Origin: Novosphingobium sp. 32-60-15
Lineage (GTDB): Bacteria; Pseudomonadota; Alphaproteobacteria; Sphingomonadales; Sphingomonadaceae
Direction: 5' to 3'
NCBI RefSeq assembly: GCF_002280675.1
Contig: NZ_NCEN01000004.1
Span: forward strand, 186,001 to 250,000
DNA: 64,000 nt
This document shows, one piece after another, positions 12,371 to 34,379 of the stretch (positions are counted from its first letter, which is position 1; the number at the start of each line of letters is the position of its first letter). A program made the translations under genes and the position numbers. A model generated the notes under the pieces. It searched no databases. It saw only the letters and a list, made by a program, of their open reading frames with translations, and was not told where the DNA came from.

Positions 12371-13576
12371 TCAGCGCAGTGATACCACGTTGTCCGAAAC
12401 GCGGGGGTCACGCCGGTCGCCACGGTACTGGCTCGACATCGGTTCGTCCGACACTTCGTACACTTCGGTTGCGCCAAAGCCGTTGAATGCGGTTTTCATG
12501 GCGGCACCATAAGCGCCGAGCATGCCGATCTCGATGTAGTCACCTGCACGGATGTTCGAAGGCAATTCGAACGGACCGTCCATGTGGTCCATGTCGTCGC
12601 AGGTTGGGCCGTAGAAGCTGAAGGGCTCCATTTCGATCTCAACGCCGTCATTTGCGACTTCGTTGCGCAAGACGTTCACAGGGAAGCGCCAGCCAACGTG
12701 TGCGGCATCGAACAAAGCGCCATAAGCACCATCGTTGATGTACAGTTCGCTACCGCGACGGCGTTCAACGCGCACGATCATCGAATTGTATTCAGCCGAC
12801 AAGGCACGGCCCGGTTCGCACCACAGTTCTGCCGAGTAGGACACTGGCAGAGATTCGTAGGTACGGTCGATCACGCCGAAGTAATCTTCGAGCGGTGGTG
12901 GTTCCATGCCGGGGTAGATCGACGGGAAGCCACCGCCGACATCGATGATGTCAACGAGGACCGAGGCGTCAACGATGGCTGCACGAACACGCTCAAGCGC
13001 CTGAACATAGGCGTGAGGGCTCATCGACTGGCTGCCGACGTGGAAGCACACACCGAGCGAATCCGACACCTGACGGGTTGCCTGAAGCAATTCAGCGGCG
13101 TTGGTCAGATCGCAGCCGAACTTGGATGCAAGGCTGAGTTCCGAATATTCCGATGAAACGCGCAAACGGACGCAGAGCGTCAGGTCTTCGGCCTGATCGG
13201 TCGCTTCGGTGATCTTTTCCAGTTCATCAAGCGAATCAAGGCTGAACACACGCACGCCATGATCGTGATAGGCTTCACGAATGGCGCTGGGCGACTTTAC
13301 CGGATGCATGAAGCACAGCGTAGCTTGTGGCAGCGTCTCGCGCACGAGACGCACTTCGACAATCGAAGCAACGTCATAGTGCGTTACGCCTGCATCCCAC
13401 AGCACACGCAGCAAATCCGGCGAAGGATTGGCCTTTACCGCATAGAGCGACTTGCCCGGAAACTTCTCAACGAAGAAACGGGCTGCGCGCGCAGCAGCAT
13501 GCGAACGGTTCAAAATGGCGGGTTGGTCAGGCGCGCAAGCGCCAACTACAGCCAATGCGTTAGGATAGATGTGCAA
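12371..13576 (-). CDS. Ornithine/lysine decarboxylase (alanine-racemase fold)
   Basis: PLP-dependent decarboxylase of the eukaryotic-type ODC group, making putrescine and/or cadaverine. The PLP lysine is in LYAVKANPSP (Lys48 from this start). FHVGSQS, IIDVGGGFPSIYPG, CEPGRALSAE and the catalytic cysteine in YGPTCDDMD are all present. A TTG at 13576 gives the family-like N-terminus MHIYPNALAVV. An ATG at 13636 is in frame but would translate a strongly paired leader. Ornithine-versus-lysine preference cannot be decided here. The neighbouring carboxynorspermidine genes use its product, so this is a polyamine cluster. Confidence 0.9.
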   Translation of the reverse strand: MHIYPNALAVVGACAPDQPAILNRSHAAARAARFFVEKFPGKSLYAVKANPSPDLLRVLWDAGVTHYDVASIVEVRLVRETLPQATLCFMHPVKSPSAIREAYHDHGVRVFSLDSLDELEKITEATDQAEDLTLCVRLRVSSEYSELSLASKFGCDLTNAAELLQATRQVSDSLGVCFHVGSQSMSPHAYVQALERVRAAIVDASVLVDIIDVGGGFPSIYPGMEPPPLEDYFGVIDRTYESLPVSYSAELWCEPGRALSAEYNSMIVRVERRRGSELYINDGAYGALFDAAHVGWRFPVNVLRNEVANDGVEIEMEPFSFYGPTCDDMDHMDGPFELPSNIRAGDYIEIGMLGAYGAAMKTAFNGFGATEVYEVSDEPMSSQYRGDRRDPRVSDNVVSLR

Positions 13577-13581
13577 CTCAA

Positions 13582-13633
13582 GGGACCCCCAAACGGAACA
13601 GTGAAAGAAGCTGCCTTGCGGTTTGGAAGTCCC
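13582..13633 (-). ncRNA. Stem-loop leader of the decarboxylase mRNA
   Basis: On the minus strand, 13633-13621 (GGGACTTCCAAAC) can pair with 13594-13582 (GTTTGGGGGTCCC) in a 13-bp stem with two U-G wobbles and a 26-nt loop. The stem ends five bases before the proposed TTG start and buries the G-run that would act as ribosome binding site. Position and form recall the alphaproteobacterial speF leader motif found upstream of ornithine decarboxylase genes. That assignment is inference and needs a covariance-model search. Confidence 0.5.
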
Positions 13634-13684
13634 CATGGGGCAGCGAGAAGGGGTAAATAGAGGCGTCTGGCTGAACATCAAGTG

Positions 13685-13713
13685 AAAAACGGACCCCGGC
13701 AAACGCGTGTCAA
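13685..13713 (-). promoter_or_regulatory. Candidate promoter of the decarboxylase gene
   Basis: A perfect -35 TTGACA (minus strand, 13713-13708) is followed after 17 bp by GTTTTT (13690-13685), a weak -10. Transcription would start near 13678 and give a leader of about 100 nt containing the stem-loop at 13582-13633. Confidence 0.35.
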
Positions 13714-13828
13714 AAAAATGAAACAATTTGCGCCAAATCGCCTAAAAATCGGGGATTCTTTACAGAGCCGTGAAGCACCCCCGGCCTTAAGGGCATGTCG
13801 GTGATTTCCGAATCATCATGACGTCTTT

Positions 13829-15040
13829 TCACGAAAGCCGGTCGCGGAAGTCCTCATAGGTAAAGCCGCGAACTTTCTGGAGCGCGTCGGTTTGACTGTT
13901 CCAGAGCCAGATCGATGGCAGGGGCACACCGTTGAACGTGGTCGTCTTGACCATCGAATAGTGCGCCTGATCGAGGAAGGCGAAGCGGGTGCCGGGGGCT
14001 GCGCCGGCGGGCAAGCGGTAATCGCCGATTACATCTCCGGCCAGACAGGAAGGGCCACCGAGGCGAACGGGCGCCCCGCCCTCGCCCCCAATGTCTCCGG
14101 CGTCCTCGTATTCATCGATGGGCAACTCACCCAACATCGCAGGGCGATAAGGGGCTTCGATCACGTCGGGCATGTGGCAAGTGGCTGAAATGTCAGTCAC
14201 AGCCAGTTGCATGCCGTTCCAGTGCGTATCAAGCACGGTGCCGACAAGGATGCCTGCGTCAAGCGCGACAGCTTCACCGGGTTCGAGATAGATCTCGCAG
14301 CCGGTTTGCGCCTTCACAGCTTTGAGGAAGGCGACCAGATCATCGCGCTGATAATCAGCGCGGGTGATATGGTGGCCGCCGCCAAAGTTCAGCCACTTTA
14401 GCTGGCCGAGATAGGGCTGGATGCGCGGCAGCAGAGCATCCCATGTGCGCTGGAGCGGTTCGAAGTCCTGTTCGCACAGTGTGTGGAAGTGGATGCCACC
14501 GACACCTTCGAAATGTTCGGGTTTGAGTTGATCCACAGGGAAGCCGAGACGCGAATGCGGCGCGCACGGGTCATAGCGCGGCACTTCGCCTTCGGCATGA
14601 AGCGGGTTCACACGCAGGCCGATGTCGAACACATCGCCACGCGCTTTGGCGGCGGTGATCTCGGCCTTGAAGCATTCGTGTTGGCCGGGCGTGTTGAAGA
14701 TCACGTGATCGGACAGCCGAAGGATTTCGGGCAGGTCTTCGGCTTTGTAGGCTGCGCAATATGTGGCGATTTCGCCCTTGTAATGTTCGGCTGCCAGCAT
14801 GGCTTCCCACAGGCCCGATGTGCACACGCCATCAAGGTATTCACCGATGACGGGCGCGACTTTCCACATGGAAAACGCCTTCATGGCGGCAAGGACTTTG
14901 ATCCCGGCACGGTCACGCACATCGGCGAGCACGGCCAGATTGGCGCGCAATTTGGCTTCGTCCACAACGAAGGCGGGGCTATCGACACGGCTAAGGTCGA
15001 AGTGGGCAAACGCGCCCGGATCGCCGGCTTTGGTTTCCAT
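13829..15040 (-). CDS. nspC: Carboxynorspermidine/carboxyspermidine decarboxylase
   Basis: PLP enzyme that decarboxylates carboxy(nor)spermidine in the alternative, SAM-independent route to spermidine or norspermidine. It has the alanine-racemase-like fold with the PLP lysine in AAMKAFSMW (Lys54), GGIHFHTLCEQD, WLNFGGGHHITR, YLEPGEAVALDAG and the FLDQAHYSMVKTTTFNG block typical of the family. About 403 residues is normal. The ATG at 15040 has GAGGG seven bases upstream; a TTG two codons earlier is less likely. It lies upstream of the decarboxylase gene on the same strand. Confidence 0.93.
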   Translation of the reverse strand: METKAGDPGAFAHFDLSRVDSPAFVVDEAKLRANLAVLADVRDRAGIKVLAAMKAFSMWKVAPVIGEYLDGVCTSGLWEAMLAAEHYKGEIATYCAAYKAEDLPEILRLSDHVIFNTPGQHECFKAEITAAKARGDVFDIGLRVNPLHAEGEVPRYDPCAPHSRLGFPVDQLKPEHFEGVGGIHFHTLCEQDFEPLQRTWDALLPRIQPYLGQLKWLNFGGGHHITRADYQRDDLVAFLKAVKAQTGCEIYLEPGEAVALDAGILVGTVLDTHWNGMQLAVTDISATCHMPDVIEAPYRPAMLGELPIDEYEDAGDIGGEGGAPVRLGGPSCLAGDVIGDYRLPAGAAPGTRFAFLDQAHYSMVKTTTFNGVPLPSIWLWNSQTDALQKVRGFTYEDFRDRLS

Positions 15041-15063
15041 TTTCAAGCCCTCATTTTAAAAAT

Positions 15064-15097
15064 GTTTCGCGCAGAGGCGCAGAGGAAGCAGAGAACG
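15064..15097 (+). repeat. Left inverted repeat of the GxxExxY cassette
   Basis: 34-bp copy beginning GTTTCGCGCAGAG, just past the stop of the GxxExxY gene. It matches the reverse complement of 15509-15542 at 30 of 34 positions. The repeat is itself internally repetitive, with CGCAGAGG-like units. Confidence 0.85.
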
Positions 15098-15105
15098 GGG
15101 AGACT

Positions 15106-15492
15106 TCAATCGGCTTGGTAATTGTTGACCATTCGCCGAATCCCTTCCTTCATCGTCGCGCCGGAAAAGTTAAGGAGCAGCCCTACGGGCTGTTTCATGA
15201 GCCGCAGGTACGTGAGGAGCTGCTTTGCATGAGCCTTGCTCAATTGCTCGACAGCTTTCACTTCAACAATCAATCGCTCCTCGATCAAAAGGTCAATCCG
15301 GAACGCAGCGTCGTAGAATTTCCCGTCAAGATTAACACCTACCGCCACCTGACGTTCAACTCGCAAGCCTCGCCCTTCAAGCCGTCCTGCAAGGACCGCT
15401 TCATAAACTGACTCAAACAGACCAGGACCGATCTCGCGATGTATACCAATCGCCTCTTCGATCACAGTTGCGCTGAGTTCATCGAACTGCAT
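15106..15492 (-). CDS. GxxExxY protein (PD-(D/E)XK-like)
   Basis: A 128-residue protein of the GxxExxY family, whose function is unknown but which resembles PD-(D/E)XK nucleases. The name motif is GLFESVY (residues 24-30). Candidate metal ligands follow as FRID (Asp67) and VEVK (Glu77-Lys79), with QLLTYLRL as the trailing helix. The C-terminus, VGLLLNFSGATMKEGIRRMV, is typical of the family. It sits between the carboxynorspermidine dehydrogenase and decarboxylase genes and is enclosed by inverted repeats at 15064-15097 and 15509-15542. The whole intergenic gap is accounted for by this cassette, which looks like an insertion. Confidence 0.88.
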   Translation of the reverse strand: MQFDELSATVIEEAIGIHREIGPGLFESVYEAVLAGRLEGRGLRVERQVAVGVNLDGKFYDAAFRIDLLIEERLIVEVKAVEQLSKAHAKQLLTYLRLMKQPVGLLLNFSGATMKEGIRRMVNNYQAD

Positions 15493-15508
15493 CCGTTGAA
15501 ACCCTCAG

Positions 15509-15542
15509 CGCTCTCTGCTTCCTTCGCGTCTCTGCGCGAAAC
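15509..15542 (-). repeat. Right inverted repeat of the GxxExxY cassette
   Basis: 34-bp inverted partner of 15064-15097 with four mismatches, ending 16 bp before the stop codon of the dehydrogenase gene. On the coding strand it lies just upstream of the GAGGG ribosome binding site of the GxxExxY gene, so it may contain its promoter or leader. Confidence 0.85.
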
Positions 15543-15557
15543 CTCTTCCTTCTTACC

Positions 15558-16763
15558 TCAAAACGCCAGTGGCCCGGCCAGTTCCTTGACATGCCACGGG
15601 AGGCCGTGCTGGTTTAGCATGTCCATGTAGGGATCGGGATCGAGTTGTTCGATGTTGAACACGCCGGTTCCGCTCCAGATGCCCTGCACCATCAGTGCTG
15701 CGCCGATCATCGCGGGAACGCCGGTGGTGTAGCTTACTGCCTGGTTGCCGGTTTCGCGATAAGCGTCCTCGTGATCACAGATGTTGTAGATGTAGAAGGT
15801 CTTTTCGACGCCGTCTTTGAGGCCGGTGGCGATGTCGCCGATGTTGGTCTTGCCCTTGGTGGTGGCACCCAAAGAGGCGGGTTCGGGCAGGACGGCTTTG
15901 AGGAACTGGAGCGGGATGATTTCCTTGCCTTCGTACATCACCGGATCGATGCGCGTCATGCCGACGTTTTGCAGGACGGTAAGATGCGTGATGTAGGCAT
16001 CGCCGAAGGTCATCCAGAAGCGGATGCGTTCGATTTCGGGGATATGATGCGCGAGGCTTTCGAGTTCCTCGTGGTACATCAGGTACATGTTCTTGGGGCC
16101 AACCGCTTCGAAATCGAAGGTTTCGCGGATGGTCAATGCAGGCGTTTCAATCCATTCGCCGTTGAGCCAGTGGCGTGCGGGCGCGGTCACTTCGCGGATG
16201 TTGATTTCCGGATTGAAGTTGGTCGCAAAGTGCTGACCATGATCGCCGCCGTTGCAATCAAGGATGTCGAGCGTGCGGATCGTGTCGAGCTTGTGCTTGC
16301 GCAGCCACGTTGCGAACACGCTGGTGACGCCGGGATCGAAGCCTGAACCGAGCAGCGCCATCAGGCCGGCTTCCTTGAAGCGCTCCTGATAGGCCCACTG
16401 CCACGTGTATTCGAACTTGGCCTCGTCAATCGGCTCGTAATTCGCGGTGTCCATGTAATTGACGCCGGCGGCAAGGCAGGCGTCCATGATGTTGAGGTCC
16501 TGATAAGGCAGCGCGAGATTGACCACGAGGACGGGCTTTACTTCGTTCAGCAACGCAGTGGTTGCGGCAACATCATCGGCATCGATCTGGTAAGTATCGA
16601 TGGTGACGCCGGTACGCTCTTTCACCGAAGCGGCGATGGCATCGCATTTGCTTTTGGTGCGGCTGGCCAGCGCGATTTCGCTGAAAATACCGGCGTTCAT
16701 CGCCATCTTGTGAACCGCAACCGAGCCGACGCCGCCTGCGCCGATGACGAGAACTTTAGCCAT
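15558..16763 (-). CDS. Carboxynorspermidine/carboxyspermidine dehydrogenase (saccharopine dehydrogenase family)
   Basis: NADPH-dependent enzyme that condenses putrescine (or diaminopropane) with aspartate semialdehyde to carboxyspermidine (or carboxynorspermidine), the substrate of NspC. The Rossmann start is VLVIGAGGVGSVAVHK, followed by NLALPYQDLNIMDACLAAGVNYMDTANYE and LLGSGFDPGVTSVF, all typical of the saccharopine-dehydrogenase-like CANSDH/CASDH group. 401 residues is normal. It is first in the polyamine unit, with nspC and the decarboxylase downstream on the same strand, separated from nspC only by the GxxExxY cassette. Confidence 0.92.
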   Translation of the reverse strand: MAKVLVIGAGGVGSVAVHKMAMNAGIFSEIALASRTKSKCDAIAASVKERTGVTIDTYQIDADDVAATTALLNEVKPVLVVNLALPYQDLNIMDACLAAGVNYMDTANYEPIDEAKFEYTWQWAYQERFKEAGLMALLGSGFDPGVTSVFATWLRKHKLDTIRTLDILDCNGGDHGQHFATNFNPEINIREVTAPARHWLNGEWIETPALTIRETFDFEAVGPKNMYLMYHEELESLAHHIPEIERIRFWMTFGDAYITHLTVLQNVGMTRIDPVMYEGKEIIPLQFLKAVLPEPASLGATTKGKTNIGDIATGLKDGVEKTFYIYNICDHEDAYRETGNQAVSYTTGVPAMIGAALMVQGIWSGTGVFNIEQLDPDPYMDMLNQHGLPWHVKELAGPLAF

Positions 16764-29118: not shown

Positions 29119-30908
29119 TGAAAATGGCTTGCGCTGCACGATGCACGCTTCTGACGCTGGCAACTTCGGTCGCTGCGTTTGCCGCTATGCCTGCTTTCGC
29201 CAATAGCGCCGCGGTCGATTATTTTCGGGGCCGCGCTGATCGTACTGCCGTGCCATCCCTGCTGAGCCAGGATGACCGTTCTTATTACAAAACGCTGTTC
29301 GGGGCGATTGACAAGGAAGACTGGTCGCAAGTCCAGTCCTTGTTCGCGCAACGCGCTGATGGTCCGCTGCACACAGTTGCCCGCGCACAATACATGCTTG
29401 CCGCCAATTCGCCGAAAGCCGAACTGGTGCCGCTTACCGATGCTTTGCATGCTGCCCCCAACCTTCCCTGGGCAGAGCAGTTGGGCAAGCTTGCCTTAAA
29501 GCGCGGCGCAATTGCCATTCCTGATCTGCCGCAAGCACAGCGCTTCGTTTCACTGCCAACGGTAACAAAGCGCATCCGGCCCCGCTCAATCACCGATGGC
29601 ACAATGCCTGAAAGCGTGGCTGCTGCTATTGTTGACCGGATCAAGTTTGACGATCCCGTTGGCGCCCGGGTGCTGCTTGATGGCGTAGACGCAACGCTTT
29701 CGCCTGAAGCCCGCGCAGAGTGGCGCCAGAAAATTGGCTGGGCGTTCTATATTGAAAACGATGACGCCACAGCCCGCGCAATATCGCTGACCGCAGCCGA
29801 TGGAAGCGGTCCGTGGGTTGCCGAGGCATATTGGACGGCAGGGTTGGCAAGCTGGCGTTTGGGCGATTGCCTTGCCGCCGCTGATGCTTTTACCAAATCG
29901 GCATCGCAGTCCCACAACGACGAACTGGGGGCTGCAGCGCATTATTGGGCGGGACGTGCTGCGATGCGTTGTCGCAAACCTGAAATGGTTGCCGCATCAC
30001 TGCGGTCCGCGGCGCGTTTTGGTGAAACACTTTACGGCATGATGGCGCAAGAAGCGCTGGGCATGCGCGAAAGCACGCGATCAGCCGCACCTGATTTCTC
30101 TCCTAGCGATTGGCAAAATCTTCGTAACGTAGCCAATATCCGCACGGCGGTGCAACTTGCCGAAATCGGCAAAGATGGCCTGGCCGACGAGGTTCTGCGG
30201 CATCAGGCGCGGATCGGTGATCCTGCACAATATGCGCCGCTTTCGCGTTTGGCGCGCGACCTTGGCCTGCCATCAACGCAATTGTGGATGGCGTACAATG
30301 CGCCCACGGGTGCGCGACCCGATGAATCCGCACGCTTCCCTGCACCAAAATGGGTGCCTGCTACGGGTTGGAAAGTTGATCCAGCCCTGCTGTTTGCGCA
30401 TTCATTGCAGGAATCAAACTTCCGCACATCGGTGACAAGTCCCGCAGGGGCCAAAGGCCTGATGCAGCTTCGTCCCGGCACTGCTCGCGATATGGCACGG
30501 GCAGAACCCTTGATGGCAGGGCGCGATAGCCAGCTTGAACTGCCCGACGTAAACCTTGCCTTTGGCCAGCAATATCTACAGCAATTGCGAAATTCTGAAG
30601 CTACGCAGGGTCTGTTGCCGAAAGTCATGGCGGCATATAACGCAGGCCCAATGCCCGTTTCGCGCTGGAATACGGATATACGCGGCGGCACTGATCCACT
30701 TTTGTGGATGGAATCAATTCCCTACTGGGAGACGCGTGGATACGTTTCCATCGTGATGCGCAATTACTGGATGTATGAGCGTCAAGCCGGAGGCCCTTCC
30801 GAAAGCCGCCTCGGCCTTGTTCAAGGCATGTGGCCCAAATTCCCCGGCCTTGAAGGTGCAGAAAACGTCCGGCCAGAACATGTCAGGATTGCATCGCGTG
30901 GCAATTGA
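29118..30908 (+). CDS. Soluble lytic murein transglycosylase
   Basis: Periplasmic enzyme that cleaves peptidoglycan to 1,6-anhydromuropeptides. A signal peptide (LLTLATSVAAFAAMPAFA) is followed by an alpha-superhelical domain of about 400 residues and a C-terminal SLT domain. The catalytic glutamate is in HSLQESNFRTS, with SPAGAKGLMQLRPGTA and VMAAYNAGPMPVSRW as further SLT motifs. A GTG at 29118 overlaps the previous stop (TAGTG); an ATG two codons later is also possible. About 597 residues matches Slt70-like proteins. moaB begins inside its last codons. Confidence 0.92.
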   Translation: MKMACAARCTLLTLATSVAAFAAMPAFANSAAVDYFRGRADRTAVPSLLSQDDRSYYKTLFGAIDKEDWSQVQSLFAQRADGPLHTVARAQYMLAANSPKAELVPLTDALHAAPNLPWAEQLGKLALKRGAIAIPDLPQAQRFVSLPTVTKRIRPRSITDGTMPESVAAAIVDRIKFDDPVGARVLLDGVDATLSPEARAEWRQKIGWAFYIENDDATARAISLTAADGSGPWVAEAYWTAGLASWRLGDCLAAADAFTKSASQSHNDELGAAAHYWAGRAAMRCRKPEMVAASLRSAARFGETLYGMMAQEALGMRESTRSAAPDFSPSDWQNLRNVANIRTAVQLAEIGKDGLADEVLRHQARIGDPAQYAPLSRLARDLGLPSTQLWMAYNAPTGARPDESARFPAPKWVPATGWKVDPALLFAHSLQESNFRTSVTSPAGAKGLMQLRPGTARDMARAEPLMAGRDSQLELPDVNLAFGQQYLQQLRNSEATQGLLPKVMAAYNAGPMPVSRWNTDIRGGTDPLLWMESIPYWETRGYVSIVMRNYWMYERQAGGPSESRLGLVQGMWPKFPGLEGAENVRPEHVRIASRGN

Positions 30909-33425: not shown

Positions 33426-34379
33426 GAGCCTGATTCAAAATTATCCTTCGTAAATTCATAACCTTGCGATGCGGCGGGCGAAGAGCTGGATCGAGGCTAT
33501 GAACAGCCATGCGGTTGCTGACGCGATGGTTTGCTCGAAATCCTTGGCCAATCGGCGGTTTCGATTCAGCCATGCCAGCGTCCGCTCTACGACCCAACGG
33601 CGTGGAAGGACCACGAAACCCCTGGCGGTATCGGACCGTTTGACGATCTCGAGGTTCCATTTGCCGATCCGGCTCAGCGCCTGCCGGAGTTTGTCTCCAG
33701 CATAGCCGCCATCGGCAAACACATGGCGCAGCCACGGGAAACGCTTGATGATCTCGGTCAGCACCAGCGGTGCACCGTCTCTGTCCTGAATGTCGGCGGT
33801 GTGGATCACGGCGTGGACCAGATTGCCCTCGGTGTCGGTGAGGATGTGGCGCTTGCGGCCCTTGATCTTCTTGCCCGCATCATAGCCGTGAGGACCGCCG
33901 GATTCGGTGGTTTTGACGCTCTGGCTGTCGATGACCCCGGCACTGGGCGAGGCATCGCGCCCGGTCGCCTCGCGTCCGATCAGCAATAGGGCATGATTGA
34001 GCGACAACCAGAGCCGGTTGTCCCGCCAAAGGTAAAACCAGCGCCGCACTGTCGAGACCGGCGGAAAGCACGGTGGCAGCATCCGCCACGGCAGACCGCC
34101 GCGCAACAGATACAGGATCGCCTCGATAATCCGCCGCAGCGGCCACTTGCGCGGACGGCCCACATGCGACGGCGGCGGCAAAAACGGCTCAAGCAGCGCC
34201 CATTCAGCGTCGGTCAAATCACTTGGCAAAGCCAAGTCCGCGCGGGCATACTGCGTCCGAGTGGTGTCGGTCCACATCGTTGATCTCCGGTAGTCTTCGC
34301 AAAACCACCTGAATCAACGACTTGGGCTGGCGTCAAGCTAACCCACTGATACCACTCAACTTAGTTTCGGATCAGGCAC
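33426..34379 (-). mobile_element. IS5-family (IS1031-type) insertion sequence
   Basis: A complete 954-bp insertion sequence. The ends GAGCCTGATTCAAAATTA (33426-33443) and, read from the other side, GTGCCTGATCCGAAACTA (34379-34362) match at 14 of 18 positions. The element is flanked by TTA on both sides (33423-33425 and 34380-34382), a 3-bp duplication of TNA type as expected for the IS1031 group. One intact transposase gene fills it. It is inserted just upstream of the membrane-anchored regulator gene. Confidence 0.9.
33456..34277 (-). CDS. IS5-family transposase
   Basis: DDE transposase of 273 residues, intact. The N-terminal part shows LTDAEWALLEPFLPPP and RRIIEAILYLLRGGLPWRMLP. The catalytic triad is visible as VIDSQSVKTTE (Asp), FADGGYAGDKL (Asp) and RRWVVERTLAWLNRNRRLAKDFE (Glu in the Y/V-(2)-R-(3)-E-(6)-K-like signature). 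No frameshift is needed. The element should therefore be capable of moving. Confidence 0.95.
   Translation of the reverse strand: MWTDTTRTQYARADLALPSDLTDAEWALLEPFLPPPSHVGRPRKWPLRRIIEAILYLLRGGLPWRMLPPCFPPVSTVRRWFYLWRDNRLWLSLNHALLLIGREATGRDASPSAGVIDSQSVKTTESGGPHGYDAGKKIKGRKRHILTDTEGNLVHAVIHTADIQDRDGAPLVLTEIIKRFPWLRHVFADGGYAGDKLRQALSRIGKWNLEIVKRSDTARGFVVLPRRWVVERTLAWLNRNRRLAKDFEQTIASATAWLFIASIQLFARRIARL

Follow-up and report, generated by a model that had tools for sequence, protein, structure and literature searches.

Work on the REPIN/RAYT system (Bertels and Rainey 2011, PMC3116915) indicates that RAYTs and their REPs co-vary and that RAYT paralogs are distinct. The elements described here resemble REPINs in being short and non-autonomous, with two inverted repeats enclosing a variable loop and a mostly doublet, facing arrangement. 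The likeness extends to the system as a whole, in that one genomic gene is flanked by the same repeat, its paralogs are distinct, repeat and enzyme co-vary, and no target duplication is seen at the elements. Unlike a RAYT, however, the enzyme is predicted to be a RecB/Cas4-like PD-(D/E)XK nuclease and not a Y1/HUH tyrosine transposase, and the arm consists of tandem CRCNRAG units in place of the GTAG-type palindrome of REPs, with a motif that, unlike that of REPs, is recognisably common to many phyla. As no RAYT is present, the elements are by definition not REPINs.

A second precedent comes from Candidatus Thiomargarita nelsonii, in which a MITE derived from PD-(D/E)XK_2/YhgA has been proposed (PMC4853749). 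It shares with the present case its short inverted-repeat elements and a proposed origin from a PD-(D/E)XK-encoding element, but it is linked to a protein of the YhgA/Rpn type and its ends carry an inverted repeat of 19 bp and a direct repeat of 10 bp, whereas here the arms differ, the protein is GxxExxY and there is no direct repeat. The Rpn proteins (YhgA-like, PF04754) are small PD-(D/E)XK nucleases that have been studied as DNA mobilisers (PMC5350276); GxxExxY belongs to a different Pfam family, PF13366. Among the open-licence PMC papers searched, two mention GxxExxY, each in passing, no function is proposed for PF13366, and arm sequences of the ACCRCAGAG/CACGAAG type have neither a match nor a named source.

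The cassette considered here probably belongs to a family of miniature inverted-repeat elements as the member that carries the gene, with GxxExxY as a trans-acting enzyme that recognises the arms and maintains or spreads the gene-less elements. It occupies positions 15064–15542 of the window, by which we mean the whole stretch of 64,000 nucleotides that was analysed. As an unstranded unit of 479 bp it runs from GTTTC to GAAAC, its limits being given by the sharp edge of the inverted repeat and by the empty sites of relatives. The left arm (15064–15097, plus strand), whose purine-rich strand reads inward, has the sequence GTTTCGCGCAGAGGCGCAGAGGAAGCAGAGAACG and is identical at 30 of 34 positions to the reverse complement of the right arm (15509–15542, minus strand), with a looser extension that reaches 55 nt at 76% match; both belong to the dispersed arm family. 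The inverted repeat scores 24; when the region was dinucleotide-shuffled 100 times, scores averaged 12.6 and never exceeded 19. The preliminary description of this locus, in which 30/34 inverted arms enclosed a single 128-residue gene, is thus exact in its coordinates, and the repeat scores above every shuffle.

The one open reading frame between the arms is the GxxExxY gene, at 15106–15492 on the minus strand, and it is co-oriented with both flanking genes. These lie outside the element and are kept as neighbours across the genus; from the preliminary description and general family knowledge, we take them to be a carboxynorspermidine dehydrogenase-like gene (15558–16763, minus strand) and an nspC-like decarboxylase gene (13829–15046, minus strand). 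A 451-residue open reading frame adjoining nspC (12371–13726, minus strand) resembles, by eye, the PLP-dependent ornithine/lysine decarboxylases, and on that likeness would complete a polyamine gene cluster around the cassette.

The 128-residue protein matches the TIGR04256 profile with 124.7 bits (cut-off 35) and PF13366 (PDDEXK_3) with 128.4 bits (cut-off 22). In the Pfam scan PF13366 alone exceeds its cut-off; PF01930 (Cas4) gives a weak match below cut-off, and the Rpn/YhgA profiles PF04754 and PF12784 give none. The motif residues are G24xxE27xxY30, D67, E77-x-K79 and Q91xxxY95. In an alignment of 67 proteins from many phyla, E27, Y30, D67, E77, K79, Y95 and N108 are invariant, H88 is nearly so, and Q91 is found in at least 90%; the residues previously singled out as nuclease-like, Asp67 and Glu77-Lys79, are among the invariant ones. 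The set D...E-x-K...QxxxY is, as we understand the family, that of RecB/Cas4-type PD-(D/E)XK nucleases.

A search of the PDB by sequence gives no match to GxxExxY. The AlphaFold2 model, which is of high confidence (pLDDT 90.5, pTM 0.85), is closest in structure to Cas4 SSO0001 (VIA Z 9.6, Foldseek TM 0.53), followed by restriction-endonuclease-like proteins (Z 8.4 for one of them) and, lower, by Hjc resolvases; matches with Z below 8 may reflect nothing beyond a common arrangement. Core fold and motif set are shared with Cas4, RecB and lambda-exonuclease. Unlike Cas4, GxxExxY is minimal at 128 residues and its locus contains no cas genes or helicase; there is no cysteine in the sequence, and hence no Fe-S cluster of the Cas4 type, for which four are needed. 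From its motif and fold model, GxxExxY is predicted to be a conserved RecB/Cas4-like PD-(D/E)XK nuclease. Values of dN/dS between 0.03 and 0.12, for pairs with estimable dS, show that it is under purifying selection.

The preliminary description took the cassette as the unit, and the cassette is confirmed, but the system is far larger, the arm being a repeat dispersed throughout the genome. With the cassette as query, the genome that the window comes from (G000, with 3.76 Mb in 61 contigs) gives 43 matches, almost all to arms, and the arm pattern at up to 3 mismatches has 90 matches compared with 16 for a reversed control. The arm GTTTCRCGCAGAGRCGCRGAGR bounds about 27 more short elements, of 70–333 bp, that have two arms and a variable loop and no GxxExxY gene. 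When up to 2 mismatches are allowed there are 58 arm matches, 50 of which fall into 25 neighbouring pairs, with 8 singlets, and all 25 pairs are convergent, facing inward. At both ends of the 27 elements, positions 0–20 are nearly always GTTTC[GA]CGCAGAG[AG]CGCAGAG, and beyond GTTTC there is no conservation save for a purine-rich tendency. What emerges is a REPIN-like system of repeats associated with a predicted PD-(D/E)XK nuclease; the finding is real and larger than first stated.

Exactly one GxxExxY gene is present in this genome, within one arm pair, and that is the sole arm pair around a conserved gene. Two arm subfamilies can be distinguished, GTTTCGCGCAGAGGCGCAGAGGAAGCAGAG and GTTTCACGCAGAGACGCAGAGAAGAAG. 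The resident GxxExxY gene has GTTTCGCGCAGAGGCGCAGAGGAAGCAGAG arms; the GTTTCACGCAGAGACGCAGAGAAGAAG arms (for example at L029, L043 and L047) have no resident GxxExxY in this genome and resemble those of the GxxExxY cassette that occupies the homologous site in two congeners, G320 and G173. A single arm taken alone folds only weakly (−9.5 to −3.6 kcal/mol, calculated with RNA parameters and no shuffled control), and the elements have no match in Rfam. That the arms are regulatory hairpins of the GxxExxY gene alone is ruled out, since most copies are without the gene.

TIGR04256 is found in 54 of the 250 genomes of the home family, in 1–8 copies each, and the gene behaves in a RAYT-like manner, being inherited and mostly present in one to few copies per genome. 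Inverted repeats of the arm type lie close outside GxxExxY at 28 of 30 family loci, the cassette locus included; at the remaining two (L084 and L085) they are weak or short. A wider contig scan gave 80 GxxExxY loci from about a dozen phyla, with two archaeal records. The bacterial sources include Bacteroidota, Planctomycetota, Verrucomicrobiota, Acidobacteriota, Chloroflexota, Cyanobacteria, Armatimonadota, Ignavibacteria/Melioribacter, Beta- and Alphaproteobacteria, Desulfobacteraceae and Sumerlaeota, among others. An inverted repeat score of at least 14 is reached at 49 of the 74 loci with enough flank, across many phyla and archaea, and in 1 of 259 shifted control intervals (0.4%). Repeats thus accompany nearly all sampled GxxExxY genes of the family and most of those across phyla, a check that the preliminary description had proposed. 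The arms have a common design across phyla, with CRCNRAG units every 8 or 9 bases, often after TTNACC, as in AACCACAGAGACACAGAGACACAGAG. As the arm motif is common to the loci, pairing the flank of one genome with that of another likewise gives scores above background.

Arms and proteins vary together. Between genomes, protein identity and arm similarity at 39 family loci give a Mantel correlation of 0.59; none of 2000 permutations is as high, and none exceeds 0.29. In the genome with eight GxxExxY paralogs (G109) the arms are mostly different from one paralog to another, but left and right arm agree within each locus. The co-variation is partly due to physical linkage and shared descent, and it goes beyond linkage in so far as flanks free of selection would be expected to lose their similarity at such distances.

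The gene also occurs together with dispersed arms, in statistics that ignore phylogeny. In the home family, the arm type of the window reaches 4 copies or more in 28 of 54 genomes with the gene and in 12 of 196 without it (Fisher p=2.5e-13), and this is an undercount because many other gene-bearing genomes of the family have arms of a different type. Gene loss would fit eleven of the 12 gene-less carriers, each of which has a gene-bearing congener; the remaining one is G095. Among 292 cyanobacterial genomes, at least 10 arms of the general pattern are found in 44 of 52 with the gene and in 11 of 240 without (p=1.7e-33); for genomes of at least 3.5 Mb the figures are 44 of 50 and 11 of 53 (p=2.6e-12), and arm copies rise with the number of GxxExxY genes (rho 0.48). 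Dispersed arms are also present in every one of the 20 genomes with the gene that were sampled in other phyla, with 2 to 242 matches, often as close facing pairs. Six cyanobacteria that bear GxxExxY are without the searched arm type, and sizeable arm populations occur without a full-length GxxExxY in G556, G462, G627, G389, G095 and G156. A search of such arm-rich, gene-less genomes for a missed, diverged GxxExxY found no full-length PF13366 match and two weak partial ones; these populations are possibly relics of gene loss or the product of an independent mobiliser.

Those arm-rich genomes without GxxExxY favour an explanation in which an ordinary mobile element, moved by another, undetected transposase, has the arms as its ends, GxxExxY being a passenger and the short elements MITEs. 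MITEs are common in bacteria, and the transposase search in the home genome covered Y1 alone. We nevertheless regard this explanation as unlikely. The Y1/RAYT profile (PF01797) finds no match in the home genome, where the same search succeeds in E. coli; no transposase lies inside the arm pairs among the home-genome elements examined, the GxxExxY cassette being the only pair there with a conserved gene; and arm pairs spaced 250–700 bp apart in many phyla nearly all hold GxxExxY, with few holding unrelated open reading frames, in a sample centred on GxxExxY. The arms, moreover, co-vary with GxxExxY. In 155 arm pairs the inverted repeat stops about 5–6 bases outside the first unit, and neither symmetric nor asymmetric offsets reveal a target-site duplication in them, save for matches inside the arm, unlike the situation in classical IS elements and MITEs with a DDE transposase.

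Comparison of relatives shows how the sites vary. The cassette is present between both polyamine genes in G260, G323, G277, G320 and G173, and is therefore common at this site to at least five other species, with 72–79% identity, from which the home copy looks old and mostly inherited. The remaining congeners that were read have no cassette in the dehydrogenase–nspC gap; among them is the closest relative, G306, whose gap (flanks 90–93% identical) contains 115 bp of unrelated repeat. Empty sites, with gaps of −2 to +12 bp between the two genes, are found in G315, G319, G263 and G293. The earlier reading of the cassette as a discrete inserted unit, which looked to such empty sites in relatives, is upheld by them, but this copy does not look like a fresh insertion.

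Between the home genome and G306, which are species about 95% identical, element sites were compared by joined-flank queries with the flanks of 13 elements. Four elements of the home genome are present in G306 (L002, L007, L033 and L037) and four are absent (L010, L011, L024 and L042); L015 is truncated there, and in place of L021 there are 441 bp of different DNA. One further element, L006 (contig C16, near 33705–33788), corresponds to L203 of G306 by an exact inversion between the arms with intact flanks: it matches at 88 of 92 positions as the reverse complement compared with 64 of 92 directly, and its interior at 42 of 44 compared with 18 of 44. This in-place inversion could alternatively have arisen by ordinary recombination between the arms. 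In more distant species, several of the sites are occupied by an element from a different subfamily. No fresh transposition event was caught in the comparisons between relatives, nor was a clean insertion site. The site that came nearest to one, that of L024 compared with G306 (flanks 94%), has a small number of unmatched bases at either side, and because absent sites in G306 are unclean, deletion is as likely as insertion.

The retention of a single cassette in the same place by six species, together with the strong purifying selection, would suit a nuclease that benefits the host, for example in repair, at replication forks or Holliday junctions, or in defence, with the hairpin elements as its functional recognition sites instead of selfish DNA and the arms of its own gene as regulatory or terminator hairpins. 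The presence of archaeal Hjc Holliday-junction resolvases among the structural matches fits this alternative, as does the near absence of the gene from mobile replicons: its profile occurs in 7 of 72,556 plasmid records, none of them mobilizable, and in none of 50,697 phages, figures that rule out phage or plasmid as its vehicle. The gene is, however, patchily distributed in its family, element sites differ between close relatives, and paralogs in one genome have different arms; as RAYTs are likewise single-copy and inherited, such retention stays compatible with mobility. On balance this alternative seems improbable. Spread of the repeats by recombination or gene conversion between hairpins (template switching), with the arms around GxxExxY arising from permissive intergenic build-up, could draw on the other repeats at the dehydrogenase–nspC gap in other species, the change of arm subfamily at orthologous sites and the element flipped in place, but is very hard to credit, as it leaves unexplained both the arms that bound GxxExxY in many phyla and the scarcity of arms in gene-less genomes.

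We therefore return to GxxExxY as the trans-acting enzyme of the elements, a system that would work as REPIN/RAYT does with an unrelated enzyme. In support stand the observed anatomy, dispersal and facing orientation of the arms, co-occurrence, co-variation, the nuclease motif, selection, site polymorphism and the flip. The arms, made up of tandem 7-bp CRCNRAG units every 8–9 bp with a GTTTC end here, would be what GxxExxY recognises. Facing arms may pair to form a hairpin, in single-stranded DNA or as a cruciform; GxxExxY would bind the arm units and cut at or near the outer GTTTC edge; and host repair or replication would then copy or re-join the element, elsewhere or flipped in place, with no target duplication. 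The flip and the missing duplication of this last step are seen, and the enzyme's part in it we infer. The preliminary description had raised the possibility that the protein aids its own spread or maintenance, a proposal strengthened by the gene-less elements, the co-occurrence and the co-variation, from which we infer that the elements move.

These results suggest that GxxExxY drives a kind of miniature mobile DNA that had not been recognised before. The chances seem to us evenly balanced that it represents a new class of DNA mobilisation, in which a stand-alone RecB/Cas4-type nuclease propagates CRCNRAG hairpin elements across phyla and archaea with no DDE, HUH, tyrosine or serine transposase, as a counterpart of REPIN/RAYT that arose independently. 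The link to the arms gives a candidate function to GxxExxY, a 'hypothetical' family that is common, and a candidate source to the abundant repeats of the ACCRCAGAG/CACGAAG type in many bacterial genomes. If the nuclease does move the elements, transposition gains a further class of enzyme, and the situation that makes REPINs puzzling, in which small populations of repeats coexist with a single inherited enzyme, would have evolved more than once.

Three observations were made in passing. The dehydrogenase–nspC gap (15047–15557 in the window; also L173, L177, L181 and L195) is a hot spot across the genus, and in other species it holds unrelated palindromic repeats of the CCCTCTCCC and CCTCCCC types. 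In a cyanobacterial pair, G468 and G610, which have about 8 kb of common synteny in the stretches compared, a 142-bp inverted-repeat insertion of the GTTGGGTTGAG type lies near 29570–29710 of contig C1 of G468 and is absent in G610 (about 95% identity); it is MITE-like, and as an unrelated repeat it is ruled out as an arm element. On the 880-kb replicon of Sphingomonas parapaucimobilis (NZ_CP155749.1; L325), a GxxExxY gene with degenerate arms lies between fabD and fabG, in a fatty-acid operon, and is another insertion between co-transcribed genes.
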